Both the position numbers and the translations under genes were made by a program. This document shows positions 13,283 to 34,366 of a stretch of 34,366 nucleotides of DNA, one piece after another. The notes under the pieces are model-generated. The model ran no database searches. It saw only the letters and a list, made by a program, of their open reading frames with translations, and was not told where the DNA came from. Numbering within the stretch: position 1 is the first letter of the stretch; every line of letters begins with the position of its first letter. The stretch spans positions 1-34,366 of the forward strand of contig JAOTUR010000004.1 in NCBI GenBank assembly GCA_029863805.1. The letters are read 5' to 3'. The DNA is from Candidatus Krumholzibacteriia bacterium (GTDB lineage: Bacteria; Krumholzibacteriota; Krumholzibacteriia; WVZY01).

Positions 13283-13668
13283 GCTTTTGGCTGAGACTTC
13301 GACATTTAATGCGCCGGCTCATCCCGGCCGGTTCGGAGCTCAATTCGAGTCAGTGAACGGCCCGTTCCGCTCGACGACATGACGGTGATCTCACCCACGC
13401 CCTGGACTCCTTCCGTCACGGGCAGTACAACCTTTGTGGAAGCCTTTGGGAATGTGCCGTTCTCGTGTATCTTAAAGGAAACGTGTGGAGGCAACGTCAC
13501 GGTCGCCGCTATCGCGTGTGTGGATGAGTCGATCGAGGGGTATGGCTTCTACCGAACTCTCCTAACTTGACCGTCACGTCGTCCGTATTGGCCCTATGGC
13601 TCGCTGCCCGACTGGCTGCTTCCGTCGGACCTAATCATGGGCGACTTGGCATTCATGGTGGCAACAAC

Positions 13669-15477
13669 ATGGCTTTGACGAGGTTGGCACTCAACATCTT
13701 CTTCGCTTTGGCGCTCACGGCTGCGTGGGCCCTCGCGCAGGTGCGGGGCCAGGGCGCACGCGGTCGGGGTAGCGAGTTCAAGGGATGGACGGTCCGCACG
13801 CTCGAGGTGCGCGGCCTCGAACCGACGTTGGCAGCGTCGCTCAAGTCGGGGCTAGAGCTCTCCGAGCGCAGGGTGGTGTACCGGACGCGCCGCGTTACTT
13901 TTTATCCCGCCGTTCTCGACGAGGATCTACAGCGCGTGCGCTTATTCATGGCGCGGCGTGGGTTTCCCTACGCGCGCGTCGAGCCTAACTTAAAGCCGAT
14001 CGAACAGGGAAAGAGTCTCAGGGTAGTCCTCAACATCACGCCGGGCCATCGCGTTACTCTGGGGGCCGTTTCCATTCGCGGCGTCCCACGGGAGATCGAT
14101 TATGTACACACGCTGGTTGGTGGTAAGGCGTTCTCCGACGACGGGCTGGATAACGCCGTCCGCGACCTGGTGTCGGCTCTGAAGTCTGCCGGTTACGCGC
14201 AAGCCGAGGTGAAGACAAACGTGGAATGGCTGGACTCCACGAGCGTTACGGTGACGTTGGAGGCAAAACCCGGTCGTGCTTATCGCTTCAACGAGGTGCG
14301 CGTCACCGGGACGCAATCCGACCTCGCGCATCTGGTGCAGAAGAGTGCGGGCATCAAGCGCGGTCAACCGTACTCGCCCGCCACCATGGACCGCGTGCGT
14401 ACGAACCTGCGCACGCTTGACTTGTTCCGGCAGGTCCGCGTATCCACGGTGGACGCCGGTGACGACCTGCTCGACGTACAGGCCGACCTACTCGAGCGCC
14501 GTCCCCGAACGGTCGAAGTGGGTTTGGGCTACTGGTCCGATGACCTGCTGCGGGGGCGTTTTCGCTGGGAACACCGAAATCTCTTGAAAGGGGGACGCGG
14601 TGTAAGCTTTGTAAGCACGGCGTCGAAGTTCTCACAGACGGCAAAGACGTCGATGTGGTGGCCGGTACTTCTCGGCGCGCGGACGCGTGCGACCCTTTCG
14701 CTGAGCGGCGAGCGCCAAGACGAGGAAAGCTACGAGCTTTTGCGCGTTGGGGGCGGACTCGGCCTGACATACCGCTTGTCGTTGATCGCGTCGGGGCGTG
14801 TAGGCGTGGAGGTGAACTGGGTGGATCTCGAACGTAAGACCGACGACCCGGAGGCCTTTGTTGACGAAGGCGGGCTCCTGACCATTTTCTCGCTACGCTT
14901 GAGCCGCAACAGCGCCAACGATCGTGTTTATCCGAGCAAGGGCCATGTGCTATGGCTCAACGCCGAGATCGCACCGCCCGGCGGTATCACCGAAAACCAC
15001 TTCGCTTTGTTCGAAGGCTCGGCCACGCGTTACCAACGGCTGGGGGATGGCGTCGTGCTGGGGGGCCGTGTCAACGCCGGCCTGGCCGAACCGATCGGGC
15101 GCTCGGTTGACCTACTCCCCAACAAGCGTTTCTTTGCCGGAGGATCGACCTCGATGCGCGGTTTCGGGCGCCGTCGCCTGGGACCTGTGGACGATGGGGG
15201 ATCGCCCATCGGTGGCGAGCTCAAGCTGACGGCGACGGTTGAGCTGCGCGTCCCGCTTGTGTGGAAGTTCGGCGGCGCCGCCTTCGTCGACGTCGGGCAA
15301 GTGTGGCGTCACGTAGAGGATTTGGACGCCGACGACGTCGAGGTAGCGGTAGGACCGGGCGTCATGATACAAACACCGGTCGGGCCGCTGCGGGCAGACT
15401 GGGGCTATCGCCTCACTGACTTTCAATCGAACGAAAAGCGGTTCGCCTTTCACATTGCGATTGGCAATCCGTTCTAG
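13669..15477 (+). CDS. tamA: Omp85-family outer membrane protein, TamA-like (POTRA + beta-barrel)
   Basis: ORF 13567..15477; ATG at 13669 gives signal peptide MALTRLALNIFFALALTAAWALAQ. POTRA-like repeats; barrel motif 'FFAGGSTSMRGFGRRRLGP' and C-terminal 'GPLRADWGYRL...FHIAIGNPF'. Symbol assigned by pairing with a tamB-like gene. Confidence 0.85.
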   Translation: MALTRLALNIFFALALTAAWALAQVRGQGARGRGSEFKGWTVRTLEVRGLEPTLAASLKSGLELSERRVVYRTRRVTFYPAVLDEDLQRVRLFMARRGFPYARVEPNLKPIEQGKSLRVVLNITPGHRVTLGAVSIRGVPREIDYVHTLVGGKAFSDDGLDNAVRDLVSALKSAGYAQAEVKTNVEWLDSTSVTVTLEAKPGRAYRFNEVRVTGTQSDLAHLVQKSAGIKRGQPYSPATMDRVRTNLRTLDLFRQVRVSTVDAGDDLLDVQADLLERRPRTVEVGLGYWSDDLLRGRFRWEHRNLLKGGRGVSFVSTASKFSQTAKTSMWWPVLLGARTRATLSLSGERQDEESYELLRVGGGLGLTYRLSLIASGRVGVEVNWVDLERKTDDPEAFVDEGGLLTIFSLRLSRNSANDRVYPSKGHVLWLNAEIAPPGGITENHFALFEGSATRYQRLGDGVVLGGRVNAGLAEPIGRSVDLLPNKRFFAGGSTSMRGFGRRRLGPVDDGGSPIGGELKLTATVELRVPLVWKFGGAAFVDVGQVWRHVEDLDADDVEVAVGPGVMIQTPVGPLRADWGYRLTDFQSNEKRFAFHIAIGNPF

Positions 15478-15479
15478 AC

Positions 15480-18400
15480 ATGGGTACGCGATCCCGAGGC
15501 ATCTACAAACGAACGCTGCGCACTTCGCTTTACGCGCTTGCATTACTGGTCGTTGTGGCGGTAGTCGCCGCAGCGTTGCTCTTGCTCCAGCCAGTTCGTG
15601 ACCGCGTGCTCTCGTTCGCGTTGAGCAAGGGGCGTGCATCGTTGCCGGGAAGCCTGGTCGTCGGCCATGCGCGCTGGCAGGCCCTTTCGCGCATCGAGGT
15701 CGATGACGTCCTGTGGATCGATGAAGGCGACACGCTCGCCGTTGTCGATCGTTTTACCTTGTCCATCGCACTACGACCTCTCGCGTCGCATCGCCTGCTG
15801 GTACGCGAGTGCATCTTACTCGGCCTCGAGGTCGACGTGCCCGCCATAAGGAGGCGGCTCAGAGCCGCGGACAGCGGTGCCGCGGCGCCCGAGCGCGACG
15901 TCGGTGGCGGGTTCCTGCGCCCGGGCTCGCTGCCGGGGGTGCCTGCGGTCGCGGTGGAGCGTCTGGAGATGGACGCGCCGCGACTTCGCCTCACCGACGA
16001 GCGCGCGATCGAGTCGATCGACGTGCTGGCATCGATTGACCTCTTCGATGGGCGGCCGCCGTCGATCGCCGTCGATCGACTTCAGCTCACAGACTCCGCG
16101 GGACGCTTCGGCGTTGACGATACCCGTCTTCGCGTAGAAATCGACCGCGGCGTCCTGAACGGAGAGGGACGTGGCCGCGTCGCGTCCGGTCTTGCCGTAT
16201 CATTCGAACTTTTTTCGCCGAGCAAGGACGCCATCGACCTCCACGTGGCACTAGCCGACTCCGGGCGCGCGGATGCCGCGAACATCGAGCTCAACGTAAC
16301 CGCCCGGCTCGCGCGCCGGCAGTTCGACGTCAGCTCGGTCGATTTCCAGGGGACTCTGCACGTTCCAGCGCGCGACTCGCTCCCGACCATCGTCCGGGCT
16401 CGCGCCCAGAAACTCCCTCACTTCAGCACCCTCGACGTCGGTTTCAGCGGGCGCTACGAGCGGAGTGCCGATGGGTCATCGGGCTTGGGCGTACACGTCG
16501 ACGAGCGACCACCCTTCGGTGGCCTGGACACGCGACTGACGTTTCACGGAGGCGCAGTAGCGGTCGATACCTTGAACACCCGTATTAAGGACCTCGCGGT
16601 AGCGGGTACCGGCACACTGTCGGCCGACGGCCGTGTCGACGCGTGGCTCGACGCGCGGGGTGCCGTGAACGGATTCGCGCTGACCGACTCTCGGCTTCGG
16701 CTTCACGCGCCGTCGCTGGCGTCCCCGCCCTACCATCTCGACGTGTCCATCGTGGCTGCGGAGCTGCACCTCGCCGCCCAGGCCACGGTCGAGCGCCCCG
16801 GGGACTGGTTGATCAAGTTGTCACCGCTCGTTTTGACCGAGAGACGCGTGCCCTTACGCACACCAAAAGGGCGCTTTGGCGAAATCCATGTAGGTGAAAA
16901 AGGCGACGTGCGCGTTCGCCGCCTCACGATCGCAGGCGGCGCGGGGCGATACCTATTGCACGGATCGATGTCCCGCAAGCGCCGCGGTGAGTTGCATGTC
17001 GATTGCGACTGGAGCGGTCCACCGGCGATACTCTTGCGGCATCTGCTACCCGACGCGACAAAGCGCGCCGAGGTCGCCGCCGCGTGGCCCGATACGGTTC
17101 GCGGGACGATCGTCGCGATCGCAGACCTTTCTTCGGGTGGCCGAGAGGTTAGTGGCACGTTCAGGGTCTCCTCGCCGGGGTGGATCGATTCGAGCGTGGT
17201 GCGCGTGCAAGTGAGCGGGGACGACAGCCGGATCGACACCGCGATCGTCGCGCTGCCAGGGCTGCGTGTGCTGGCAAGCGGTGGAGTCCGTGACGGCGAG
17301 TGGGACGCCGAGGCGGCCGTGTCGTGGGACGCCGACAACATCGTGGAGCGCATCGTCCCCGCCATCGTGGGCGTGACCGGTGAGGCCGATGTGTCGTTCA
17401 GCGGCCGCCGGGAGGTTCCACGCGTTCGCGCGTCGCTGAGCGCGGCTTACGACAAGGGCGGTACCCGCGTGCCCGCCATCGTCGCGCATGGTGACTGGTC
17501 GCGAGACCATCTGAGTTTGCGGGTGTCGTGCCCGAATGGAATCTCCTCCGCAGCCTTCGCCTTGGATTCGCTGGCTGCGACGCTCGACTCGCACCAGAGA
17601 AAACCGTTGCCAGCGCGGGTCACCATGGGTGCCACCGGTAGCGACCTCGCGTTCACCCAGCGCCTGGACGTCAGCCGGGAGGACGGCTGGCTGTTCGACA
17701 CCGACTCGTTGATGCTCGAGATGAGGGGAGAACGTCTGCGCGCCTCGCACCCCTTTCGGGTTCGCGTGCACCCAGAACGGGCGCGGGTGACACTCGAAGA
17801 TGTGGAGTTGTCTGGATCAATGGGGACGCTGCGCGCGCACGGCTTCGCCCAACCCGACTCGTCGGATGTCGAGGTGCATGTCGACGTTGAGCTACCGCCC
17901 AAACCCAAATCGCTCACCCTTGCCGAGGAGCTATGGCCCGGACGCGTCACCGCGTCGCTGGCCGCTCGTGGAACAGACGCCGTCCGGGGATCGCTCGTCG
18001 TGTCGGACTTCAAACTTGGCGAGCGAACGGCCCTGGCGGCGCGCATCAATGCGACGGCCGCCGGCGATAGCATCGAGGGCGACATGGTACTGTCGGATGT
18101 TGGCGGCGATCTCGCCTCCGCAACCTTTCAGTTTCCGGGTACGATTGATGTCTTTCCGCCCCGCGCGCGACTCGGTGACGGCGTGGTGTCTGTCCTTATG
18201 AACCTGGAAGGTTTCCCACTTCCCGACCGCCGCCCCCTGCCTGGGAGTGACGCGGCTCGGGAAGTTGCCCACTTAGACGGTCGCCTGTGGATCGGTGGCA
18301 CCAGCGCCAGGCCCGAGGCCGGTGCGGGCGTAAGCGTGAGCTTTCCCGCTGGTTCGCCTCTGGCCAGCTACCGCGTTGATCTCGCCGCCCACCTCTCGGC

Positions 18401-19730
18401 GTGGGCGCTACCCGGTGAGGTACCGCGGTCCGTGCGGAGCAACAACATGTCGGCATTACTGGCGAAGCTGGATCCCGCGCAGGGGGTTGGGTTTGTCGCC
18501 GACGCACGCGTGTTTGAGCGAGGCAAACCCGTGGCCGACGGCGTCGTTCGCCTGCCCGTCGTTTGGTCGCTCTCACCGCCCACGGCCGCGTTGGCCGCTC
18601 GTAGCCCGGTGGTGATGCGTTGTTCATCAGGTGGGCTGGGGCTCGCCGGCCTCGCACCACTATTGCCCGAGGACGTCGGGATCGAGGGTAGGCTCGAGTT
18701 CGACCTGGCCCTGGAAGGGCCAGTTGCTGAAGCCGCGCTCTCGGGCCGTGTGACCGGCAGGGAGCTAAAGTTCACACACGCCAACGGCACCCGCGTTGCG
18801 GGTATGGGCGAGCTGCGACTGGCGGGCACCAGCAAATCGCCATCGATTGAGGGGGAGATTCAGATCGCAAACAGCGTGATCACCGTCCCGGAGAAGCCCA
18901 AGAACTTGCATCCCAGCGAAGGCGAGTCCATCCTGTGGCGGACGATGGCAGCGGGACGCGAAGAATCGGGCCAGTCCGCCGCGCCTAAGGACAGCACAGT
19001 CGCGAAGGCTCCTGTGCCGCGCATCAACCTCAACGTTTCACTGGTCATTCCATCCGCACTTTGGATACGCGGCAAGGGTCTCGACGTCGAACTGGCCGGC
19101 AATCTAACCTTAACGCAAAAGGGCGACGTGCCCACCGTCACTGGTGAACTCAACGCGATCCGCGGCCAACTACTGTTCCTGGGTCGGACATTCAAGATAT
19201 CGCGCGGGAAAGCCGTGTTTTACGGCGAGGACAACATCAACCCGTCGCTCGACCTCGAGCTCACCACAACGGTGGAGGGTATGGTGATCACGGTTCGCAT
19301 GCTGGGCACGACCGAGGAGCCTGAGGTCACTCTGAGTTCGGAGCCTGCTATGTCGGAGGGTGACATTATGTCGTTTCTGGTCTTCGGCAAGCGCATGGAA
19401 GAGCTGAACTCGGATCAGGTGGGCTTGGTGCAGCAGCGTGCTGCACAAACCGCGGCGACATTTGGAACGCAGCTGGCCTCGCGTCTTTCGCGGCAAATGC
19501 ATGTAGATCTGATCACGCTTTCACGCGGGGAAGCAACGGGGCGTTCGACGCTGACTCTTGGCAAGTATGTCACGCGCAGGGCACTCTTGAAGTACGAGCA
19601 GTCGTTGGAAGAGCGTGCGGCCTTTTTGGTCGACCTCGAGTATTTCCTCACGCGGACGCTACGCCTGGAAACCTTCATCGGTCAGCAGCAGCAGTCAGGT
19701 TTGGAAGTCAACTGGACTCGGGATTATTGA
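15480..19730 (+). CDS. tamB: TamB/DUF490-family translocation and assembly module protein
   Basis: 1416 aa, single N-terminal TM (LYALALLVVVAVVAAALLLL), long beta-rich AsmA-like body, C-terminal DUF490-like 'GELNAIRGQLLFLGRTFKISRGKAVFYGEDNINPSLDLELTTTVEGMVITVRMLGTTEEPEVTLSSEPAMSEGDIMSFLVFGK'. Starts 3 nt after the tamA-like stop. Confidence 0.93.
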   Translation: MGTRSRGIYKRTLRTSLYALALLVVVAVVAAALLLLQPVRDRVLSFALSKGRASLPGSLVVGHARWQALSRIEVDDVLWIDEGDTLAVVDRFTLSIALRPLASHRLLVRECILLGLEVDVPAIRRRLRAADSGAAAPERDVGGGFLRPGSLPGVPAVAVERLEMDAPRLRLTDERAIESIDVLASIDLFDGRPPSIAVDRLQLTDSAGRFGVDDTRLRVEIDRGVLNGEGRGRVASGLAVSFELFSPSKDAIDLHVALADSGRADAANIELNVTARLARRQFDVSSVDFQGTLHVPARDSLPTIVRARAQKLPHFSTLDVGFSGRYERSADGSSGLGVHVDERPPFGGLDTRLTFHGGAVAVDTLNTRIKDLAVAGTGTLSADGRVDAWLDARGAVNGFALTDSRLRLHAPSLASPPYHLDVSIVAAELHLAAQATVERPGDWLIKLSPLVLTERRVPLRTPKGRFGEIHVGEKGDVRVRRLTIAGGAGRYLLHGSMSRKRRGELHVDCDWSGPPAILLRHLLPDATKRAEVAAAWPDTVRGTIVAIADLSSGGREVSGTFRVSSPGWIDSSVVRVQVSGDDSRIDTAIVALPGLRVLASGGVRDGEWDAEAAVSWDADNIVERIVPAIVGVTGEADVSFSGRREVPRVRASLSAAYDKGGTRVPAIVAHGDWSRDHLSLRVSCPNGISSAAFALDSLAATLDSHQRKPLPARVTMGATGSDLAFTQRLDVSREDGWLFDTDSLMLEMRGERLRASHPFRVRVHPERARVTLEDVELSGSMGTLRAHGFAQPDSSDVEVHVDVELPPKPKSLTLAEELWPGRVTASLAARGTDAVRGSLVVSDFKLGERTALAARINATAAGDSIEGDMVLSDVGGDLASATFQFPGTIDVFPPRARLGDGVVSVLMNLEGFPLPDRRPLPGSDAAREVAHLDGRLWIGGTSARPEAGAGVSVSFPAGSPLASYRVDLAAHLSAWALPGEVPRSVRSNNMSALLAKLDPAQGVGFVADARVFERGKPVADGVVRLPVVWSLSPPTAALAARSPVVMRCSSGGLGLAGLAPLLPEDVGIEGRLEFDLALEGPVAEAALSGRVTGRELKFTHANGTRVAGMGELRLAGTSKSPSIEGEIQIANSVITVPEKPKNLHPSEGESILWRTMAAGREESGQSAAPKDSTVAKAPVPRINLNVSLVIPSALWIRGKGLDVELAGNLTLTQKGDVPTVTGELNAIRGQLLFLGRTFKISRGKAVFYGEDNINPSLDLELTTTVEGMVITVRMLGTTEEPEVTLSSEPAMSEGDIMSFLVFGKRMEELNSDQVGLVQQRAAQTAATFGTQLASRLSRQMHVDLITLSRGEATGRSTLTLGKYVTRRALLKYEQSLEERAAFLVDLEYFLTRTLRLETFIGQQQQSGLEVNWTRDY

Positions 19731-24365: not shown

Positions 24366-24866
24366 TCAGCGCATGTGGCCCAGGATGACCGCGCAGAGCA
24401 CGGCCAGCCATCCGCCCGCGATCGCTGTGTAGTGCAGGGCTGCACCGGTGGAGGTCATGACCCCCATGAACAGGGGCGGATCTTCCGCATCCGGGTCGCA
24501 GCAGAGGCCTTCCTTGCTGGTCTTGCCGAGGACCTTGGGCGCTACGAGGAAGATGGTCACGGGAATAGCGGCAAAAAAGATCTTGAGCCCGAAGACACCC
24601 AGCCGTGCCGTACTCGCGGGTCCTTCGTGCGTAAAGTGAAGCAAGATGGCTCGCCCGATACCGGTGAGCACCAACAATGCGACGAAGACGCGGACGATGC
24701 TCCGTACTCTGGGGATGAAGTTCACCACAAACTTCTGTCTGTGTTCATAACCCAGATGAGATTTGAGTACTGGCATGAGCACGAACGTGCCAACGAACAT
24801 CGTTCCCAGGAACACCACAGCTCCCAGGACGTGGATCCAGGTGATCATCACATCGAGAATCGCCAT
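24366..24866 (-). CDS. Four-TM integral membrane protein, CopD-like
   Basis: ORF 24366..24932; ATG at 24866 (MAILDVMITWIHVLGAVVFLGTMFVGTFVLMPVL) with SD GGAGG. Four hydrophobic helices; 'WIHVLGAVVFLGT' resembles CopD-type proteins. Family assignment tentative. Confidence 0.6.
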   Translation of the reverse strand: MAILDVMITWIHVLGAVVFLGTMFVGTFVLMPVLKSHLGYEHRQKFVVNFIPRVRSIVRVFVALLVLTGIGRAILLHFTHEGPASTARLGVFGLKIFFAAIPVTIFLVAPKVLGKTSKEGLCCDPDAEDPPLFMGVMTSTGAALHYTAIAGGWLAVLCAVILGHMR

Positions 24867-25028
24867 AACTCCTCCTGTCTCGGCATGTGCTTGTTGTTGT
24901 CCGACCGGAAAGCGTACTTCCCGTCGTCGCATGTGATGCGCCGTGACGCGACGACTCCCGCGAAAAGATCTGTACCACCACGCGAACTCCCGGTTGGCGA
25001 CACGACCTCTTCTCTGTGCTTCGCATGA

Positions 25029-25231: not shown

Positions 25232-25260
25232 TTGATTGTATGTCTAGAACGTGATATAAT
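25232..25260 (+). promoter_or_regulatory. Near-consensus sigma70 promoter, TTGATT-N17-TATAAT with extended -10 (TGA)
   Basis: TTGATT 25232-25237, 17-bp spacer ending TGA, TATAAT 25255-25260; upstream of the multiheme cytochrome gene. Confidence 0.65.
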
Positions 25261-25459: not shown

Positions 25460-27559
25460 GTGAACACAGACAACAGTGGATTGAGGAACGATCGTGCCAG
25501 AGAATGGCGGGCGAAATTAGCAATTCTGGTCATGGGACTGCTGCTCTTCGAGACCTTGACCGGGCTTGCGATTTATCTGATGCCGTTTAGCCTGCCCATA
25601 CAGTTCATGGTCCTGGTTCACACCGTAGCTGGTGTTATTTTTATCCTCCCTTACACGTGGTACCAGATACGCCACTGGCTGGTCTATCGCCGTCAGACGC
25701 TCACGCATGTCAAGGTGACGGGATACCTATCGTTGGTGGCCACTCTTGTCTGCGGGGTCTCCGGAATCGTGTTAACGGTCCAGGCGCTGTTCGGGACGCG
25801 GATAAGTTATGCGTGGGACACGGTGCATATCGTCACCACGTTCGCCTTGATCGCGTTCGCGCTGCCGCACGTCATCGCGTTGGTGATAAGAAACTGGAGG
25901 GTCAGAGACAAGGAGAGGGTGTCAACGGTGGTGGCGGCAGAGCGTCTGTTCGGGTGGGGAACCGTGGGTGTAACGGTTATCCTCTTTGCGGTAACGGCGC
26001 TGTGGATGTATGCCTATGAGCCCGTGGAGTTCAACAATGCTTTTCCGGAAGATTACAATTATACGCACGGCGAGGAGAAGCCCTTCATGCCGAGCCTTGC
26101 CCAGACCTCGACCGGCGGGGCGTTTGATGCGCGGTCGCTGTCGGGTTCACGGTCGTGCGGGACGGAAGGTTGTCACGAGGAGATCCTAAAGGAGTGGGAG
26201 CCGAGCGCACATCGTTACTCCGCACTTGATGCGGCATTCCAGAAAGTACAAAGCGTGATGGGGGAACAGAACGGGCCGGAGTCCACCCGTTACTGCGGAG
26301 GATGTCACGATCCTATTTCGCTCTTTTCCGGTACAAAGAATGTCTTTGTAGAAGACCTCACCTCTCTTGCCGGCTATCAGGAGGGGGTCTCCTGCCTCGC
26401 ATGCCATGCCATAAAGGAAACGGACGTCAAGGGCAATGCCGCCTACGTCATCGTGCAACCGGAGCGGTATGCCTACGAAATGAAGGAGGGTGCGACGGCG
26501 CGGATGCTGAGCAATTTTCTAATCCGCGCGTATCCCAGACAACATGTTGAGAGTTTGAGCCACCGCCTCTTTAAGAGCCCGGAGTTTTGCGCTGCGTGCC
26601 ATAAACAGTTTATCGATCAAGAGATCAACAAGGTCGGTTGGGTGCAGCTGCAGAACCAGTTCGACAACTGGCGTAAGAGCCGTTGGAATCAGGAAGGCGA
26701 CGCCACCCAGACCATCGAGTGTCGGGAGTGCCATATGCCCTTGGTCGCCAGCTCGAAGGATCCGGGTAGCGGAGATGCGTTGGACTACAATCGTTCGTCA
26801 AAGGACAAGAAGCATCGCAGTCACCGCTTCTTGGGGGCAAACCAATTTATGCCGAGGCTCCACGAGCTCCCAGGCGGGGAAGAACATATCGCACTTACAG
26901 AAAAGTGGCTGCGAGGTGAGATAGACATACCGGAAATCGCCGACAAGTGGCAAAAGGGACCGGCCGTGCCCATTGAGCTGGACTTGCCGGAAGAGATCGC
27001 ACCCGGGGAGCCGGTTCAAGTTCAGGTTGTCATCACCAACAACAAGGTGGGGCACGATTTCCCGACCGGGCCGCTGGATATCATCCAGGCGTGGCTGGAA
27101 GTGGTTGTAAAAGACGATGAAGGAAACATCGTGTATGATTCGGGAACCCGGGACGACGCACATTTCATCGAACCGGGCTCGTTCATCTTCAAGGCCGAGG
27201 CGGTGGATCAGTATGGCAATCTGATCGACCGCCACAATCTGTGGGAGATGGTCGGGGTGCGTTACCGGCGAACACTCTTCCCGGGTTTTTCGGATGTGGC
27301 CGAGTACTCCTTCAACTGCCCAGCGACGCTGCACACCGGTGACCAGCAGCCGCAGGATGTCGAAACGTTTCAGTTCGAAGCGCCGCCATCGGGTACTGAG
27401 AAGTTGCATGTGGAGGCCAAGCTCCAGTACCGCAAGATCGACCAGTTTCTTCTGAATTTCTTGTATGGAGAAGACTCGGGTCTGACCACACCCGTGACGA
27501 CGATATCGGAGACCACGGGTATCATTGAGGTCGTACGGGCCCAGTCACGCGTCGACTAA
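25460..27559 (+). CDS. Membrane-anchored multiheme cytochrome c with N-terminal cytochrome b-like TM domain
   Basis: 699 aa: about five N-terminal TM helices with His residues; heme motifs CGGCH, CLACH, CAACH, CRECH plus a CX4CH variant (CGTEGCH); C-terminal domain with 'NNKVGHDFPTG'. GTG start with SD AAAGGAGG. Confidence 0.9.
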   Translation: MNTDNSGLRNDRAREWRAKLAILVMGLLLFETLTGLAIYLMPFSLPIQFMVLVHTVAGVIFILPYTWYQIRHWLVYRRQTLTHVKVTGYLSLVATLVCGVSGIVLTVQALFGTRISYAWDTVHIVTTFALIAFALPHVIALVIRNWRVRDKERVSTVVAAERLFGWGTVGVTVILFAVTALWMYAYEPVEFNNAFPEDYNYTHGEEKPFMPSLAQTSTGGAFDARSLSGSRSCGTEGCHEEILKEWEPSAHRYSALDAAFQKVQSVMGEQNGPESTRYCGGCHDPISLFSGTKNVFVEDLTSLAGYQEGVSCLACHAIKETDVKGNAAYVIVQPERYAYEMKEGATARMLSNFLIRAYPRQHVESLSHRLFKSPEFCAACHKQFIDQEINKVGWVQLQNQFDNWRKSRWNQEGDATQTIECRECHMPLVASSKDPGSGDALDYNRSSKDKKHRSHRFLGANQFMPRLHELPGGEEHIALTEKWLRGEIDIPEIADKWQKGPAVPIELDLPEEIAPGEPVQVQVVITNNKVGHDFPTGPLDIIQAWLEVVVKDDEGNIVYDSGTRDDAHFIEPGSFIFKAEAVDQYGNLIDRHNLWEMVGVRYRRTLFPGFSDVAEYSFNCPATLHTGDQQPQDVETFQFEAPPSGTEKLHVEAKLQYRKIDQFLLNFLYGEDSGLTTPVTTISETTGIIEVVRAQSRVD

Positions 27560-27609
27560 ACGGGAATGACGCGGAGACGATCTCCATCACTTGACCGAGG
27601 AGGTTGGTC

Positions 27610-29451
27610 GTGATCAACACGTGGTCTCGGCGCCAGCGGCGTATTGCCCTCACGGTTTTGATCAGCGGAACCGTGGCCTTGATCGTGGGGGCAGTTGTCA
27701 TCTTCAAACCGTCCCCAAAGCCGTATGTCCCTGGCGAGCCGATCGAGGGGCTCACGGACGAATTGTCCCGCTCTCTGCCTTCGGACTATCCCCCCGTAAC
27801 CTACACAGACGTTTCGTTGCCAGCGGGTATCGACTTCAGGCATTTCTCGGGACAGCGCACCACGCAGCTGCCCGAGGACATGGGCTCCGGTGCCGCGTGG
27901 GGAGACTATGACCGAGACGGCTGGCTCGATCTCTATGTAGTAAACGAGGTCGGACCGCTGACCATGTCCGCACAACAGATTGCATCCTCGCCCGCCCACA
28001 ATGTCCTCTACCGTAACCGGGGGGATGGCACGTTCGAGGACGTGACGGCCCAGGCCGGCGTGGGTTACCGCGGGTGCGGGCAGGCCGCTGCGTGGGGAGA
28101 TTACGACAACGACGGTTTTCTCGACCTCATTGTGACCAACTACGGCGTGAATGTACTGTACCATAACCGAGGGGACGGGACGTTTGCAGACACCTCGGAG
28201 GAGGCCGGCATAGGAGGAGTCGAGGGCTATTGGGCAGGGGCCTCATGGGGGGATTACAATCGCGATGGGACTCTTGATCTCTACGTGTGCGGTTACGTGC
28301 AGTACAGCTATGAGGCCGAGGCCGCGCGCGCGAAATCTCGGCAGTATGATGCTCCGGTACCCGCTGCACTAAATCCGTCGACTTACGAGCCGCACCGCAA
28401 CCTGCTCTTCTGCAACAAGGGGGATGGAACATTCAGGGATGTGACCCACTCAGCGGGGGTCGAGAACTTAGCCGGCCGCAGCTTGTCGGCGACGTGGTGT
28501 GATTTTGACGATGATGGGTGGCCCGATCTGTATGTGGCAAACGACGTTTCCGATAACGTGCTATTCCACAACCGGGGAGATGGCACGTTCGAGGATATAA
28601 GCCACAATGCATGGGTGGCCGACTATCGGGGGGCGATGGGGTTGGCCGTTGGCGACTGGGATGGTGACCAGGATATGGATCTGTTCGTGACGCACTGGAT
28701 CGCTCAGGAGAACGCTCTCTATAATAATATGCTCTCCGATTTTGCTGATGTCCGTGCGGGCGGCGGCGCGGCGGTAAACTTTACGGATGTTGCGGACCAG
28801 TTTGGATTGGGTCAGATTGCACTCGACTACATCGGCTGGGGTACAGCCTTTGTCGACTTCAATAACGACGGTCGACTGGATCTCTTCGTAGTCAACGGCA
28901 GCACGTTTCAGCAGAACCAGGATCCCCGGTTCCTGGCTCCCATGCGCATGCTCCTCTTCTGGAACCGCGGACCGCAAGACGGTTTCTTCGAAGTGGGTAC
29001 GGTCAGCGGTGAAGTGTTCAGCAAGCGCTATGTGGGAAGGGGACTGGCGGTGGGCGACTATGACAACGACGGTGATAACGATGCGTTCGTGGTGGTGAAC
29101 GGAGGATCCGCAATGCTCCTCAAGAACGAGGGCGGCAACGCCAATTACTGGTTGAAGGTGCGCACCATAGGCCGCGCCAGCAACCGCTTCGGCGTGGGAG
29201 CCAAACTCCGCCTGGCCGCCGGTGATGTCAGAGCGATGCGAGAGGTGGGCAGCGGCTCCTCATACTATTCGCAGAATGCGGTTGGGGAGGAGTTATTTGG
29301 GCTGGGAAAGGCCGAAAGAGTCGATTCGCTGGTGATCACCTGGCCCAGCGGGGCGATACAAATACTATCCGATATCGCGGTCAATCAAGTCCTCGTTGTC
29401 ACCGAGGACGAACAGACCGGGATCAAGACCGGTAGTAGGTGTGGACAGTGA
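27610..29451 (+). CDS. CRTAC1-like FG-GAP/VCBS-repeat protein with C-terminal ASPIC/UnbV domain
   Basis: Seven Ca-binding-like repeats (WGDYDRDGWLDLYVV, WGDYDNDGFLDLIVT, WGDYNRDGTLDLYVC, WCDFDDDGWPDLYVA, VGDWDGDQDMDLFVT, FVDFNNDGRLDLFVV, VGDYDNDGDNDAFVV); 'NRGDGTFEDVT' units; ASPIC/UnbV 'NRFGVGAKLRLAAGD...VGSGSSYYSQNAVGEELFGLGKAERVDSLVITWPSG'. GTG 27610 after GAGGAGG. Confidence 0.93.
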   Translation: MINTWSRRQRRIALTVLISGTVALIVGAVVIFKPSPKPYVPGEPIEGLTDELSRSLPSDYPPVTYTDVSLPAGIDFRHFSGQRTTQLPEDMGSGAAWGDYDRDGWLDLYVVNEVGPLTMSAQQIASSPAHNVLYRNRGDGTFEDVTAQAGVGYRGCGQAAAWGDYDNDGFLDLIVTNYGVNVLYHNRGDGTFADTSEEAGIGGVEGYWAGASWGDYNRDGTLDLYVCGYVQYSYEAEAARAKSRQYDAPVPAALNPSTYEPHRNLLFCNKGDGTFRDVTHSAGVENLAGRSLSATWCDFDDDGWPDLYVANDVSDNVLFHNRGDGTFEDISHNAWVADYRGAMGLAVGDWDGDQDMDLFVTHWIAQENALYNNMLSDFADVRAGGGAAVNFTDVADQFGLGQIALDYIGWGTAFVDFNNDGRLDLFVVNGSTFQQNQDPRFLAPMRMLLFWNRGPQDGFFEVGTVSGEVFSKRYVGRGLAVGDYDNDGDNDAFVVVNGGSAMLLKNEGGNANYWLKVRTIGRASNRFGVGAKLRLAAGDVRAMREVGSGSSYYSQNAVGEELFGLGKAERVDSLVITWPSGAIQILSDIAVNQVLVVTEDEQTGIKTGSRCGQ

Positions 29452-30332
29452 AGCGAATGGCCGTCATCTTCGGGATGGTTTTGTTAGCCGGCTTCTTGGC
29501 GATCTCGGTATCGAAGCGAAAACGCCATGCGGCCGATGACGACGTGCAGTCCGGTCCGCAGATTTCGGCACAGCATAAAAACGAGATCCGGCGCTTCTGG
29601 GAGGTCTACCGACGGGCGACGGGGTTTATGCGGCAGGGTGCGTGGCAGGAAGCAGCCGCCGACTATCGGCAAGCATTGAGTATCGATCCCGGACACGAAG
29701 ATTCTCTATACTATCTGGGTAACGTGATGTTCGAACTGAATCAGTACGACGACGCCGTGTCAATGTGGCGGCAGTTGATCGAGGTGAATCCGCTCAGTAC
29801 GAGGGCACACATCCAGCTGGGAGCCGTGCACTCCTGTGGAGCGCAGGGGGCACCCTTTGATCTGGAGATCGCCGAACGGGAGTTTCAACGAGCGCACTCG
29901 ATCAATAAAGAGGAGACGGGACCGGTCCTCAAACTGGGCGAGGTGTATCTGCTAAAGGGCCAACGAGAGCAAGCGCTTACCTATTTCGCGACGGCCATGC
30001 AGACCAACGCCAAGAGTATTGAAGCACAGTACCTGACAGGTTACCTCGAATGGCAACGCGGCGATCGCCAGGCAGCGCAAAGAGCGCTTCAGCAAGCGGC
30101 AAGACTAAGCCAGGCCAAACTGTCCGCCGCAGCACCAACACGCGAAGGCGATACCCGAACTCCGGGTGGCGGGCCCATCCTGACCGAAGGCGCTAGCCGC
30201 CGGAGTTTCTTTGCGCGTCACTGGATGGCGCTCAAGACATGGGAGCGCGCAGAGGTCTCTGTGCCTATGATGGAAGCCGAGTACAAGAAGCTCGATCAGC
30301 AACTGAGCCTTCTGATCAAAGACGCCGAGTGA
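29448..30332 (+). CDS. TPR-repeat protein with N-terminal membrane anchor
   Basis: GTG 29448 overlaps the upstream TGA (GTGA). TM helix 'MAVIFGMVLLAGFLAISV'; TPRs 'WQEAAADYRQALSIDPGHEDSLYYLGNVMFELNQYDDAVSMWRQLIEVNPLSTRAHIQLG'. Confidence 0.87.
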   Translation: MKRMAVIFGMVLLAGFLAISVSKRKRHAADDDVQSGPQISAQHKNEIRRFWEVYRRATGFMRQGAWQEAAADYRQALSIDPGHEDSLYYLGNVMFELNQYDDAVSMWRQLIEVNPLSTRAHIQLGAVHSCGAQGAPFDLEIAEREFQRAHSINKEETGPVLKLGEVYLLKGQREQALTYFATAMQTNAKSIEAQYLTGYLEWQRGDRQAAQRALQQAARLSQAKLSAAAPTREGDTRTPGGGPILTEGASRRSFFARHWMALKTWERAEVSVPMMEAEYKKLDQQLSLLIKDAE

Positions 30333-30512
30333 GACGGCGTCGGCGCTCGCCTGTCGCGATCCCCACCAAATCTTCTTTCCGACTGGGTGTTTTTTGGTCA
30401 TAATGGTATCCACGATCTGCGGTGCATTGGCGACGTCGTGCCCGCGCCGGTCGACCCTTGTATATTTCCCTGATCACGAAACGTGGGATTCAGCTTGTAA
30501 GGAGCCCGAGCG

Positions 30513-31520
30513 ATGAATGTCTTACGTTATGCGGCTGCCGCCTGTCAGATCGATCTTCCCAATCCAACGCGGCGCGACAAAATCGGTGAACGCGTGTCCG
30601 AGATGATCGCGATGGTGCGAATGGCTGTCGAGGGGTACTCGCCCTTCCTGCCGGTAAAGCTCATCGTCTTCCCGGAGTTTGCGCACGCGGCTCCGGTCTA
30701 CCCGACATCCGAGGAATTACGCCGCCATTTGACCGTACCCATCCCAAACGAGCACACGGAACGGTACGCCATGGTGGCCAAGGAACTCGACGTATACATT
30801 CAAACCGGCACCTTTCTGGAAGAGGACCCGAAGTGGCCCGGCAGCGTGTTCAACACCACGTGCCTCATCGGCCCCGAGGGTTTGCTCAGCAAGTATCGAA
30901 AAGTGAATCCGTGGATCCCGTGGGAGGTGCACGCGAGTCCTCACGATCTGGAGGGATATGACGAGGAAGTCTTTCCGGTGGCCTCGACGCCGATCGGTGC
31001 CCTCGGCGTGGCGATCTGTTATGATTGGTTATTCCCCGAGGTGTTACGCCAGCTCGCCGCTGGTGGGGCGGAGGTGTTGATCCGGGTCTCCGCGTACATG
31101 GATCCGTGGGGTGCGACGGCACCCATGGACTGGTGGACGATCGTCAACCGCTGTCGCGCCCTGGAGAATATCGCCTATGTCGTGGGCGCCAATCAAGCGG
31201 CCAGCCTCTCCAACTACCCGCCATTCTCGTGGCCAGGAGGAAGCATGATCGTGGACTTCGACGGGCGCATACTCGCGCAGGCGGACCCGGGAGCGGGCGC
31301 CAAGATCGTCGTGGCGCCGATTGATATTAGCGCCCTTCGCCACGAGCGACAGACACGCCTCGGCCACCATATGCCCGCCCACCTTCGCAGCGAAGCTTAC
31401 TCGGTTTATCGCAAAACCTTTTTCGCGCCCGGTCAGTGGACGCACGAACCGAACTTGGACACGGAGAAGACCAGCCGCGCCATTCGTGACGCCAAGAGGA
31501 GACTCGAATGGGAAAAGTAA
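30513..31520 (+). CDS. Carbon-nitrogen hydrolase (nitrilase superfamily)
   Basis: 335 aa with the Glu-Lys-Cys triad context: 'IVFPEFAHAAPV', 'LSKYRKVNPW', 'LGVAICYDWLFPEVLRQLAAGGAEVLI'. SD AAGGAG before ATG. Confidence 0.93.
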   Translation: MNVLRYAAAACQIDLPNPTRRDKIGERVSEMIAMVRMAVEGYSPFLPVKLIVFPEFAHAAPVYPTSEELRRHLTVPIPNEHTERYAMVAKELDVYIQTGTFLEEDPKWPGSVFNTTCLIGPEGLLSKYRKVNPWIPWEVHASPHDLEGYDEEVFPVASTPIGALGVAICYDWLFPEVLRQLAAGGAEVLIRVSAYMDPWGATAPMDWWTIVNRCRALENIAYVVGANQAASLSNYPPFSWPGGSMIVDFDGRILAQADPGAGAKIVVAPIDISALRHERQTRLGHHMPAHLRSEAYSVYRKTFFAPGQWTHEPNLDTEKTSRAIRDAKRRLEWEK

Positions 31521-34366
31521 TGACAACCGTTCTACCGATCATTGTCGCGTGCGTGCTTGCCGGGTGTGGTGGGAATGACACCGAAAAGCGCTCGCCCGAG
31601 AATTCGGCGGCGTACGCCAAGGCGTTGGTCGAGTTCAATCGTGGTGGGGCTCTCATGGAGCAGTATCGGTATTCGGAGGCGGCGCGAGCCTACGAGGAGG
31701 TCTTGCAGTACGCACCGAACTGGGACGCCGCGCGTTTCAACCTGGGCCTGGCCTACCTCAACATGATCGGTGTGCAGGAGGGCCAGCAGGGCCTCGACCG
31801 GGCCCGCGACGTCTTCGAGGCGGTCCTGGCATCCGACCCCGGCCACCTGCCCTCTCACTTCGGTCTCGGTCTCTACCACCAGCACGTGGGGGAGAACACC
31901 GATGCGCTGGAACATTTTCAGGCCGTCTACAAGAGTGATAGCGATGACCCCTACGTGGCCTACAAGTGCGCCGAGGCCCTTCTCGCCCTTGGGCGCAAAG
32001 ATGAGGGTGCGAAGATGCTGGAGAAAGTCGTTGCCAACGACGGCGGTTTCATATCCGCGGTGTACCGTCTTGCGCTCGAGTACCAGCGCACGAACCGTCG
32101 TCAGGAGGCCGCCAAACTCTTCACGCGCTTCGGCGATCTCGTTGCCGCCGAGCTTAGCGGTGGTAGCTTCGTCGTCCAGAAGACCTACGGCACGGTGGGT
32201 AAGTACTACCAGGTACTCGGGGCAGACAACCTGCCGCTGCCGTCGACCGATACCTCGCCCACGCGGCGCATTCTACTATTGCCCGAGATCACTCGCTTGC
32301 CGACACAGCCAGCGTCGTGGGACTGGGGCGAAGGATCCGTAGACCTGCCCGGCATCGCCACCGGGGATGTCGATGGCGATGGGGATCTCGACGTATGTCT
32401 TACCGCGTCGGGAGAGGAAGGACGCACGGTCCTGTGGATGAACGATGGCACGGGTGGTTTCTCGGAGGGACAGCAGCTCGCCCAGCACGGAGTCTCGCCT
32501 TGCTTCGGCGATATCGATAACGATGGCGACCTCGATCTTTGGCTGGGGTGCGCCGGCACCGACCAGGTTTTCACGAATGACGGTGAAGGTCGCCTGCGCA
32601 CCGACGAAGTCGCGGCCGCTGTGACCGGCCCCGGCACCCTCACCCACTATGCCCGGCTGGTCGATCTCGATAGCGACGGGGACCTGGACTTCCTGGCGTT
32701 CCGGTTGGCCGAGGGGAGTGTACCGGCGCGCGGTGGTTCTGTGCCCGCGTCCGGTAGCGTCTACAACAGCAACGGCGACAGCTCGTATACCGATATCGCC
32801 GCCGCACTGGGCCTGGCACTGGACGACACGCCGGTGGCGAATGTGGTGATAGACGACTTTGACATTGACCGCGACCTGGACCTGGTCATCTTTCCCGCCG
32901 GTGGCGCCGCGCCGATCGCGTGGGTGAACGACCGAGTCGGCCAGTATCGTATCTTCGAATCATCGGCCACGGGCCTGTCCGTCCGCGGTGTGGCAAGCGC
33001 CACCTCCGGCGATCCCGACAAGGACGGTGACCGGGACCTTCTCGTATTCTCCGCTGCGGGGCTCGAGTTGCACCTCAACGTCGGTACGTTCACCTTCGCT
33101 ATAGATCAGAGCTTTACCGACCAGCACGGCTGGCTTCGAGGCACCGGCGGTCAGTTTGCCGACATGGACAACGACGGCGACCTGGACATCGTGATCGCCG
33201 ATGCGCAGCGCCGCGACGGTAGTCGCGGGCCGGCGTTGCTGGTTAATGACTGGCCGCGCCGCCGGTTTGTAAACGCCGTCGAGGAAGATCCCGGCAATCT
33301 CCTGGGCGCTGTTCGTATGTCCGGAGACGCGAGCTGTGTTGTCGCGGATTTCACCGGTGACGGGACATGCGACATCCTTCTGGCGCCGATCGCTGAGGAA
33401 CCGCTGCTCATCACCAACGCCACACCCGGGGGGCACTGGATCGAGTTGGATCTGCGTGGAACCCGCGAGCGGGATCGAAAGGCCCGCTCCAACAGTTGGG
33501 CGATCGGGGCGCGTGTGGAGATCAAGACCGGTGCGGTCTTTCAGCAGTTTGTGGTGGGTGGCAACTCGGGTCCGGTGGCCATGTCGCCGGCAAGAATCCA
33601 TGCCGGCCTCGGCGACAACGCCACCGTTGACTGGCTGCGGATCGTCTGGCCCGACGGCGTGCTGCAAGCCGAGCTCGAGATCGCCGCCGACCGGGTACTC
33701 GAGGTAACCCAACTACAGCGCAAAACGTCCTCTTGCCCTTACCTGTTTGCCTGGAACGGGTCGAGGTTCGAGTTCGTCGCCGATTTTGGCGGCGTGGGCG
33801 GATTGGGTTACTTTCTGGCCCCGGGGAGTTACGCCAAGCCGGACCCGACGGAATATTTGCGTATCCCCCGGCTCGAACCGCGCGACGGCGAGTACGTCCT
33901 GCAATGCCTGACACCGCTCGAGGAGGTGACCTACTTCGACGAGGCCAAGCTGATCGCGGTGGACCACCCCGGCGGGACCGAGGTTTATCCCAACGAGATG
34001 ATGGCCATCGGCATGGCGCCGCCTGCGCCCGAGATCTACTGTTACCGGGAAGCCATTGAGCCGTTGCACGCCGTCGACCACCGCGGTGTCGACGTCACCG
34101 ACGAATTGCGCCACGTCGATCGACGCTGCGCCGGTGCGACCCGTGTGGACGGCTGCTTCATGGGGCTCGCCGAGGATCACTTTGTCGAACTCGACTTTGG
34201 CGACCGTCTCGCTGATCTTACGCCATCACGCCGGCTGATCCTCTTTCTGTACGGCTGGGTGGAATACGGGTACTCATCCACGAATTACGCCGCTGCCCAG
34301 GCCAGCAAGACGGCTACCGCGCCCAGCATCCACGTGTTCCGCGACGGCCAGTGGACCGAGCTCATG
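31520..34366 (+). CDS. Lipoprotein with TPRs, seven FG-GAP/VCBS-like repeats, an ASPIC/UnbV domain and an uncharacterised C-terminal region (partial, open at window end)
   Basis: My translation; absent from the supplied ORF track because there is no stop in the window. TAATG stop/start overlap with the nitrilase (alternative ATG 31508). MTTVLPIIVACVLAGCGGND lipobox; TPRs; repeats GDVDGDGDLDV, GDIDNDGDLDL, VDLDSDGDLDF, DDFDIDRDLDL, GDPDKDGDRDL, ADMDNDGDLDI, ADFTGDGTCDI; 'GARVEIKTGAVFQQFVVGGNSGPVAMSPARIHAGLGDNATVDWLRIVWPDG'. Confidence 0.9.
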   Translation, partial: MTTVLPIIVACVLAGCGGNDTEKRSPENSAAYAKALVEFNRGGALMEQYRYSEAARAYEEVLQYAPNWDAARFNLGLAYLNMIGVQEGQQGLDRARDVFEAVLASDPGHLPSHFGLGLYHQHVGENTDALEHFQAVYKSDSDDPYVAYKCAEALLALGRKDEGAKMLEKVVANDGGFISAVYRLALEYQRTNRRQEAAKLFTRFGDLVAAELSGGSFVVQKTYGTVGKYYQVLGADNLPLPSTDTSPTRRILLLPEITRLPTQPASWDWGEGSVDLPGIATGDVDGDGDLDVCLTASGEEGRTVLWMNDGTGGFSEGQQLAQHGVSPCFGDIDNDGDLDLWLGCAGTDQVFTNDGEGRLRTDEVAAAVTGPGTLTHYARLVDLDSDGDLDFLAFRLAEGSVPARGGSVPASGSVYNSNGDSSYTDIAAALGLALDDTPVANVVIDDFDIDRDLDLVIFPAGGAAPIAWVNDRVGQYRIFESSATGLSVRGVASATSGDPDKDGDRDLLVFSAAGLELHLNVGTFTFAIDQSFTDQHGWLRGTGGQFADMDNDGDLDIVIADAQRRDGSRGPALLVNDWPRRRFVNAVEEDPGNLLGAVRMSGDASCVVADFTGDGTCDILLAPIAEEPLLITNATPGGHWIELDLRGTRERDRKARSNSWAIGARVEIKTGAVFQQFVVGGNSGPVAMSPARIHAGLGDNATVDWLRIVWPDGVLQAELEIAADRVLEVTQLQRKTSSCPYLFAWNGSRFEFVADFGGVGGLGYFLAPGSYAKPDPTEYLRIPRLEPRDGEYVLQCLTPLEEVTYFDEAKLIAVDHPGGTEVYPNEMMAIGMAPPAPEIYCYREAIEPLHAVDHRGVDVTDELRHVDRRCAGATRVDGCFMGLAEDHFVELDFGDRLADLTPSRRLILFLYGWVEYGYSSTNYAAAQASKTATAPSIHVFRDGQWTELM

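Follow-up and report, generated by a model that had tools for sequence, protein, structure and literature searches.

The window, that is the whole stretch of 34,366 nucleotides analysed here, corresponds to contig C353 in its entirety, from a draft genome of 3.68 Mb. Five open reading frames on its plus strand run from 25460 to the contig end, and since the window comprises the whole contig, the last gene is cut there. The features of the locus are as follows.

25232..25260, +, promoter-like site TTGATT-17-TATAAT with TG before the -10 (consensus match only)
25460..27559, +, multiheme cytochrome of 699 aa, predicted b/c-type (Pfam, c-heme motifs, alignment, structure model)
27610..29451, +, CRTAC1-type FG-GAP propeller with C-terminal ASPIC/UnbV domain and one N-terminal membrane anchor, without lipobox (Pfam, structure model)
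29448..30332, +, membrane-anchored TPR protein, alternative starts 29439 and 29457 (Pfam; GTGA overlap with the propeller gene)
30513..31520, +, nitrilase-superfamily hydrolase, formamidase/amidase-like, predicted cytoplasmic, accessory (Pfam, catalytic E-K-E-C)
31508..34366, +, lipoprotein (LAGC lipobox) with TPR, FG-GAP, ASPIC/UnbV and an extra C-terminal region, alternative start 31520 (TAATG), cut by the contig end

The five same-strand genes described in a first-pass annotation are all present with the domains named there, the products matching in Pfam, in gene order, Cytochrome_C554; FG-GAP and UnbV_ASPIC; TPR; CN_hydrolase; and TPR, FG-GAP and UnbV_ASPIC. The stop/start overlaps reported there are found as well, GTGA between the propeller and TPR genes at 29448-29451 and TAATG between the nitrilase and lipoprotein genes at 31518-31522. 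The tight packing ascribed to the cluster applies to these two junctions, but not to the 180 nt between the TPR and nitrilase genes (30333-30512) or the gap of about 45-50 nt between the cytochrome and propeller genes. For the first propeller, GTG 27610, which GAGGAGG precedes, is a better start than TTG 27604. The promoter-like site lies about 200 nt 5′ of the cytochrome gene, in a region where nine such sites are found and 3.8 expected. Just 5′ of the cytochrome gene a divergent minus-strand gene (24366-24932) encodes a 188-aa multi-helix membrane protein without Pfam or NCBIfam match, and by eye two mutually adjacent genes at 13567-19730 resemble those of an outer-membrane BamA/TamA-type and a TamB-type protein.

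Architecture of the cytochrome and the propeller

The cytochrome matches Cytochrome_C554 with 30.8 bits (cut-off 20.8) and contains five c-type heme motifs, CX4CH at 233 and CXXCH at 279, 312, 377 and 421, all of which are kept in 80 of 80 relatives. Its AF2 model (pLDDT 80) depicts about six predicted N-terminal helices and a C-terminal Ig-like domain. Four histidines of the membrane part (H54, H72, H123 and H137) do not vary among 78 aligned orthologues (78/78), nor in 16 or more of the 17 divergent homologues that bear a membrane part. The five proximal histidines together with H251, H362, H455 and H532 are invariant in 105/105 sequences, homologues from Shinella and Nitratiruptor included, while H592, the fifth distal candidate, is kept in every group except the divergent membrane-bearing clade. 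Because of these invariant histidines the cytochrome is predicted to carry seven hemes, namely five bis-His c hemes and two b hemes. Five conserved distal candidates for five c hemes would speak against a heme lacking a protein distal ligand, as in an active site of the NrfA/HAO/c554 type.

The layout of the membrane domain, about six helices with four conserved histidines, is of the DUF4405 type, and the match to DUF4405 (PF14358) amounts to 17.0 bits, below the Pfam gathering score of 26.7. Four histidines of this sort are found in heme b-binding DUF4405 proteins, and a purified DUF4405 protein binds heme b (PMC11334425). The structure search with the cytochrome model yields 5ze8 as the best and only match at E≤0.001 (E 1.7e-8, TM 0.60 on the target). 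This entry is the low-potential pentaheme c552 of Thermochromatium tepidum, which is structurally akin to the pentaheme family of ExtKL and the cable-bacteria cytochromes (PMC11976967). With c552, Geobacter ExtKL and Gsu2801 and the cable-bacteria proteins sPHC/lPHC the cytochrome shares five c hemes and an Ig-like domain. In contrast to this family it is fused to the four-histidine membrane domain, its first heme motif is CX4CH, and CRTAC1 and TPR always come after it. A score of 29.9 bits against the 250 required by the NCBIfam ExtKL equivalog NF040886 identifies it as a member of the fold family and not as an ExtKL orthologue. The same genome encodes a second, distant pentaheme cytochrome (G000:C318:6519-7865, L119), which is soluble and 448 aa long with 5 hemes; similar proteins are common in the window's phylum and are not beside CRTAC1 genes in the loci read.

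The first propeller protein (615 aa) comprises seven FG-GAP stretches and a UnbV_ASPIC domain. Two seven-repeat propellers had been proposed for the locus; the seven repeats are borne out for this protein, but in the last one, the lipoprotein, only three FG-GAP stretches are recognised. The UnbV_ASPIC domains of the two proteins score 58.3 and 47.2 bits, respectively, against a cut-off of 23.4. The model of the first propeller (pLDDT 91.7), the only one of the two for which a structure match was obtained, superposes along its whole length on murine CRTAC1 (9etn, E 2.4e-31, TM 0.66/0.74). Unlike murine CRTAC1, the bacterial propeller is membrane-anchored; its gene invariably adjoins that of a cytochrome, and fusion with TPR is frequent. 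An N-terminal helix behind arginines, uncleaved-looking and without a lipobox, is present in 70/70 propeller orthologues, for which reason the protein is taken to be held at the periplasmic side of the inner membrane, next to the cytochrome. The DxDxDG loops of CRTAC1 are expected to bind calcium, not iron. As a GlcNAc-binding fungal lectin is among the structural neighbours of the propeller, a glycan-like ligand is possible, the evidence for it being weak.

A conserved cytochrome-propeller-TPR core

Relatives were sought with the cytochrome alone as bait, using one genome per GTDB species, so that the content of the neighbouring genes is unbiased. The scan gave 203 cytochrome relatives, the best 80 of which share 53-70% identity over nearly the full length and span 15 named phyla as well as unplaced lineages. 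A propeller orthologue follows directly 3′ on the same strand in all 77 loci that extend 600 nt or more past the cytochrome gene; adjacency was counted on raw open reading frames without a gene caller and gap lengths are therefore approximate. TPR is present in 65/65 loci with room for it: in 33 it forms a C-terminal extension of the propeller, and in 32 it is a gene of its own, which mostly overlaps the propeller gene by a few bases. The TPR protein of the window is orthologous to the C-terminal propeller extension of those 33 loci. Fused and separate forms match each other at E 1.6e-59, with a few weak TPR matches of 64-90 bits, and the tree requires at least six changes by fusion or fission. 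The association of cytochrome, propeller and TPR is far above chance. Hence the neighbourhood is kept well beyond near-identical strains, decisively against the refuting condition set in the first-pass annotation, with the three components in every testable locus and in at least 15 phyla. Furthermore, distances between cytochromes correlate with those between propellers (r=0.887, n=68; 0 of 2000 permutations as high), common descent alone giving part of this correlation. Shared operons indicate co-regulation and are not proof of physical contact.

A larger conserved neighbourhood was not found: clustering of the neighbours, with small clusters partly named, gave no widespread family apart from the propeller, the cytochrome and TPR. 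One cluster of minus-strand neighbours from 16 loci overlaps the cytochrome reading frame; most likely these are antisense frames picked up by mistake. In two phyla a protein of 390-454 aa without Pfam match lies directly 5′ of a CRTAC1 gene and a gene for a TPR/ASPIC lipoprotein (asp2) beside the cytochrome module (L063:14128-15300 and L058:4478-5842).

A second cytochrome clade consists of proteins of about 750-1000 aa with around 25% identity, which carry TPR at the cytochrome C-terminus; a CRTAC1 gene directly adjoins the cytochrome gene in 17 of 25 divergent or intermediate loci. As TPR is fused to the cytochrome in this clade and to the propeller elsewhere, the three proteins are joined by a three-way Rosetta-stone link. 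No CRTAC1 genes are beside the more distant pentaheme paralogues of the window's phylum in the six loci read, which makes the link between cytochrome and CRTAC1 a specific one.

The distribution of the cytochrome is wide but patchy. Close relatives occur in 16/249 Gemmatimonadota, about 14/199 Acidobacteriota and about 24/199 Planctomycetota genomes, and no orthologue was found in 79 other genomes of the window's own phylum, where the matches at E≤1e-10 are only 24-26% identical. In the tree the nearest companions of the window cytochrome are from Lindowbacteria, Latescibacterota and one Gemmatimonadota row. For the most part the branches follow the phyla, with 17 label changes against a minimum of 14, by which rampant transfer between phyla is rejected; an ancient presence with losses, or old transfers, would fit this topology better than recent spread.

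The nitrilase and the second propeller protein

The assignment of the fourth gene to a nitrilase-type hydrolase holds at the level of the superfamily (CN_hydrolase, 130.4 bits), but its catalytic residues are of the amidase and not the nitrilase type. These E-K-E-C residues are conserved in an alignment of 41 homologues, the nearest solved relatives are formamidases, and no export signal is visible in the sequence; the enzyme is thus predicted to be amidase-like and cytoplasmic. With the formamidase/aliphatic amidase branch (AmiF-type, 5g3o) it shares PF00795, the catalytic residues and a PWxPxE loop. It scores 112 bits against the 406 of the formamidase equivalog, below the cut-off, and unlike formamidases it forms its own group, which spans several phyla at 57-79% identity and whose genes often overlap one for a TPR/ASPIC lipoprotein. 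Orthologues within this identity range are present in 17/199 Acidobacteriota and 24/199 Planctomycetota genomes sampled. The region of the lipoprotein after the ASPIC domain (past residue ~735) is common to asp2-like homologues and has no Pfam match.

In 12 of 41 loci the nitrilase gene has a same-strand asp2-like TPR/FG-GAP/ASPIC gene no more than 300 nt away, in both orders. Such a gene is missing from the stretch read in 25 of the 41, and the cytochrome is present in only two of 39 fetched nitrilase loci. These counts, like the 180-nt gap after the TPR gene, would be expected if two unrelated units merely stood side by side, a cytochrome-propeller-TPR operon and an independent amidase-lipoprotein operon with nothing in common except propeller domains. 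We consider this rather unlikely, since cytochrome, CRTAC1, asp2 and nitrilase genes are contiguous in two Acidobacteriota genomes (L159, L163), and cytochrome, nitrilase and asp2 are also found together in a third (L146) and in one planctomycete (L109). At the genome level, a pentaheme cytochrome of either clade occurs in 12/17 nitrilase-bearing Acidobacteriota against 40/182 others (Fisher p 7e-5) and in 21/24 nitrilase-bearing Planctomycetota against 34/175 others (Fisher p 7e-11), both values ignoring shared ancestry.

Cytochrome, propeller lipoprotein and nitrilase thus recur together in four distant loci in all, and on these grounds the five genes of the window make up a genuine combination, although partnership is obligatory for the first three alone. 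A second pair, looser and optional, consists of the nitrilase and the ASPIC lipoprotein and is linked to the core in several genomes. Consequently, the single envelope system with electron transfer put forward in the first-pass annotation is supported, but its five-gene unit resolves into a three-component core and a two-component accessory.

Direction of electron flow and related systems

According to the reading we prefer, with a probability of about 0.55, the module is a cell-envelope complex for quinone-linked electron transfer, with the propeller for docking and TPR as scaffold. From the observed domain content, gene order, conservation, invariant histidines and fusions we go on to infer heme ligation, complex formation, the quinone link, the direction of flow and the substrate as follows. 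The membrane helices of the cytochrome would hold the two b hemes and exchange electrons with the quinone pool, and the five periplasmic c hemes would form a wire under the Ig-like domain; bis-His multiheme proteins are known to serve as electron wires. The propeller, with its calcium loops and its own N-terminal helix, and the TPR part would provide the docking site for a substrate or partner that donates electrons, and would keep the complex assembled. Electrons would then pass from the extracytoplasmic substrate through the c hemes and b hemes to quinone and on to a heme-copper oxidase. Outside the inner membrane, material may be bound by the lipoprotein; an amide product, once taken up, may be processed by the amidase in the cytoplasm.

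The direction proposed here draws on the plasmid clusters of Shinella (pShin-02, L136:6221-11692) and Nitratiruptor (pNitYY0814_PLS, L137:5901-11372), in which genes for an imelysin, a small membrane protein, a pentaheme cytochrome and FTR1 follow one another. The small membrane protein is a four-helix protein, annotated as DUF4405 in Shinella and as hypothetical in Nitratiruptor; the profile match between the membrane domain of the window cytochrome and the Shinella protein is weak (36% probability). Both arrangements combine a membrane helix protein with a pentaheme cytochrome, the five proximal and five distal-candidate histidines being common to both, and the motif GHNLPTG of the plasmid cytochromes resembles GHDFPTG of the window. 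Contrary to the window, the membrane part is encoded by a separate gene, the partners are those of iron uptake without CRTAC1 or TPR, and the identity is 24-28%. The clusters look like an iron-uptake variant with a multiheme cytochrome in the place of the ferroxidase. As FTR1-type uptake in yeast comes after Fe(II) oxidation, this analogy suggests an oxidative use of the pentaheme cytochrome. Heme-copper oxidases are encoded by 44 of 45 carriers sampled, only carriers being counted, and by the window's genome. Because of the plasmid clusters and these oxidases, electrons probably enter the quinone pool via the cytochrome.

The flow could also run the other way, the module acting as a quinol-fed terminal reductase or as an extracellular conduit to an external acceptor docked on the propeller, which could be a mineral, a metal ion or a partner protein. 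The likely all-bis-His hemes would suit such outer-sphere transfer, and the pentaheme fold family includes ExtKL and the cable-bacteria cytochromes, which have been connected with electron transfer to the cell exterior and are reported to be relatives of the archaeal cytochrome nanowires (PMC11976967). No widespread extra family such as a porin or an extracellular cytochrome recurs beside the module in the neighbour clustering, however, nearly all carriers have oxidases, and the closest clusters with readable context are those for iron uptake, so that we judge reverse flow unlikely. These same plasmid clusters would be the model for a module in which the pentaheme cytochrome oxidises Fe(II) or reduces partner-bound Fe(III) in the service of metal handling instead of energy metabolism, a reading with which the TonB-dependent receptor near the Granulicella homologue and the occurrence of DUF4405 relatives in ferrosomes (PMC11334425) are consistent. 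Yet the homologues beside FTR1 are the distant ones noted above, and no widespread iron-uptake family is among the neighbours of the CRTAC1-linked cytochromes, small clusters there being partly named. With calcium rather than iron expected at the propeller loops, a dedicated iron module seems quite improbable. A catalytic complex of multiheme subunits and a propeller resembling hydrazine synthase (HZS) is brought to mind by HZS-like clusters of some anaerobes, which carry a CRTAC1-family gene beside genes for multiheme proteins with c554 domains (PMC12758564). The fold match of the window cytochrome differs, 5ze8 being the sole solved structure at E≤0.001 and CRTAC1 the best match of the propeller; HZS subunits are absent from the former matches and from the 50 listed for the propeller, which disfavours this reading and leaves it very little credence.

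Every component of the module belongs to a known fold or superfamily; what was not found described is the combination, its strictness and its breadth. The literature searched on ASPIC/UnbV, CRTAC1 and FG-GAP together with cytochromes or TPR does not describe the combined module, subscription literature and preprints lying outside the scope of that search. Bacterial ASPIC/UnbV (CRTAC1) proteins are recurrent in Acidobacteriota, Planctomycetota and further phyla with few cultivated members, and to our knowledge no role has been established for them in these groups. We tentatively propose, at somewhat short of even odds, an undescribed class of quinone-linked envelope redox complex, distributed over at least 15 phyla, whose seven-heme b/c cytochrome would have CRTAC1-type propellers and TPRs as its obligate subunits. 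If true, this would give the large bacterial ASPIC/UnbV family a function, the strict and fusion-backed tie to a quinone-type membrane cytochrome providing a concrete role and named partner genes, and the branch of amidase and lipoprotein would represent a new pathway by which an amide-bearing compound is catabolised or acquired.

Experiments are feasible in cultured relatives of the pentaheme part, i.e. Shinella, Nitratiruptor and Granulicella tundricola, whose cytochrome has an adjacent CRTAC1 gene and lacks the four-histidine membrane domain. On plasmid pACIX901 of G. tundricola (L135:6825-16767) a CRTAC1 gene, a pentaheme/TPR fusion and a cytochrome c gene are followed by two further CRTAC1 genes, a TPR gene and the gene of the TonB-dependent receptor, with GH88 and sugar-binding genes alongside.
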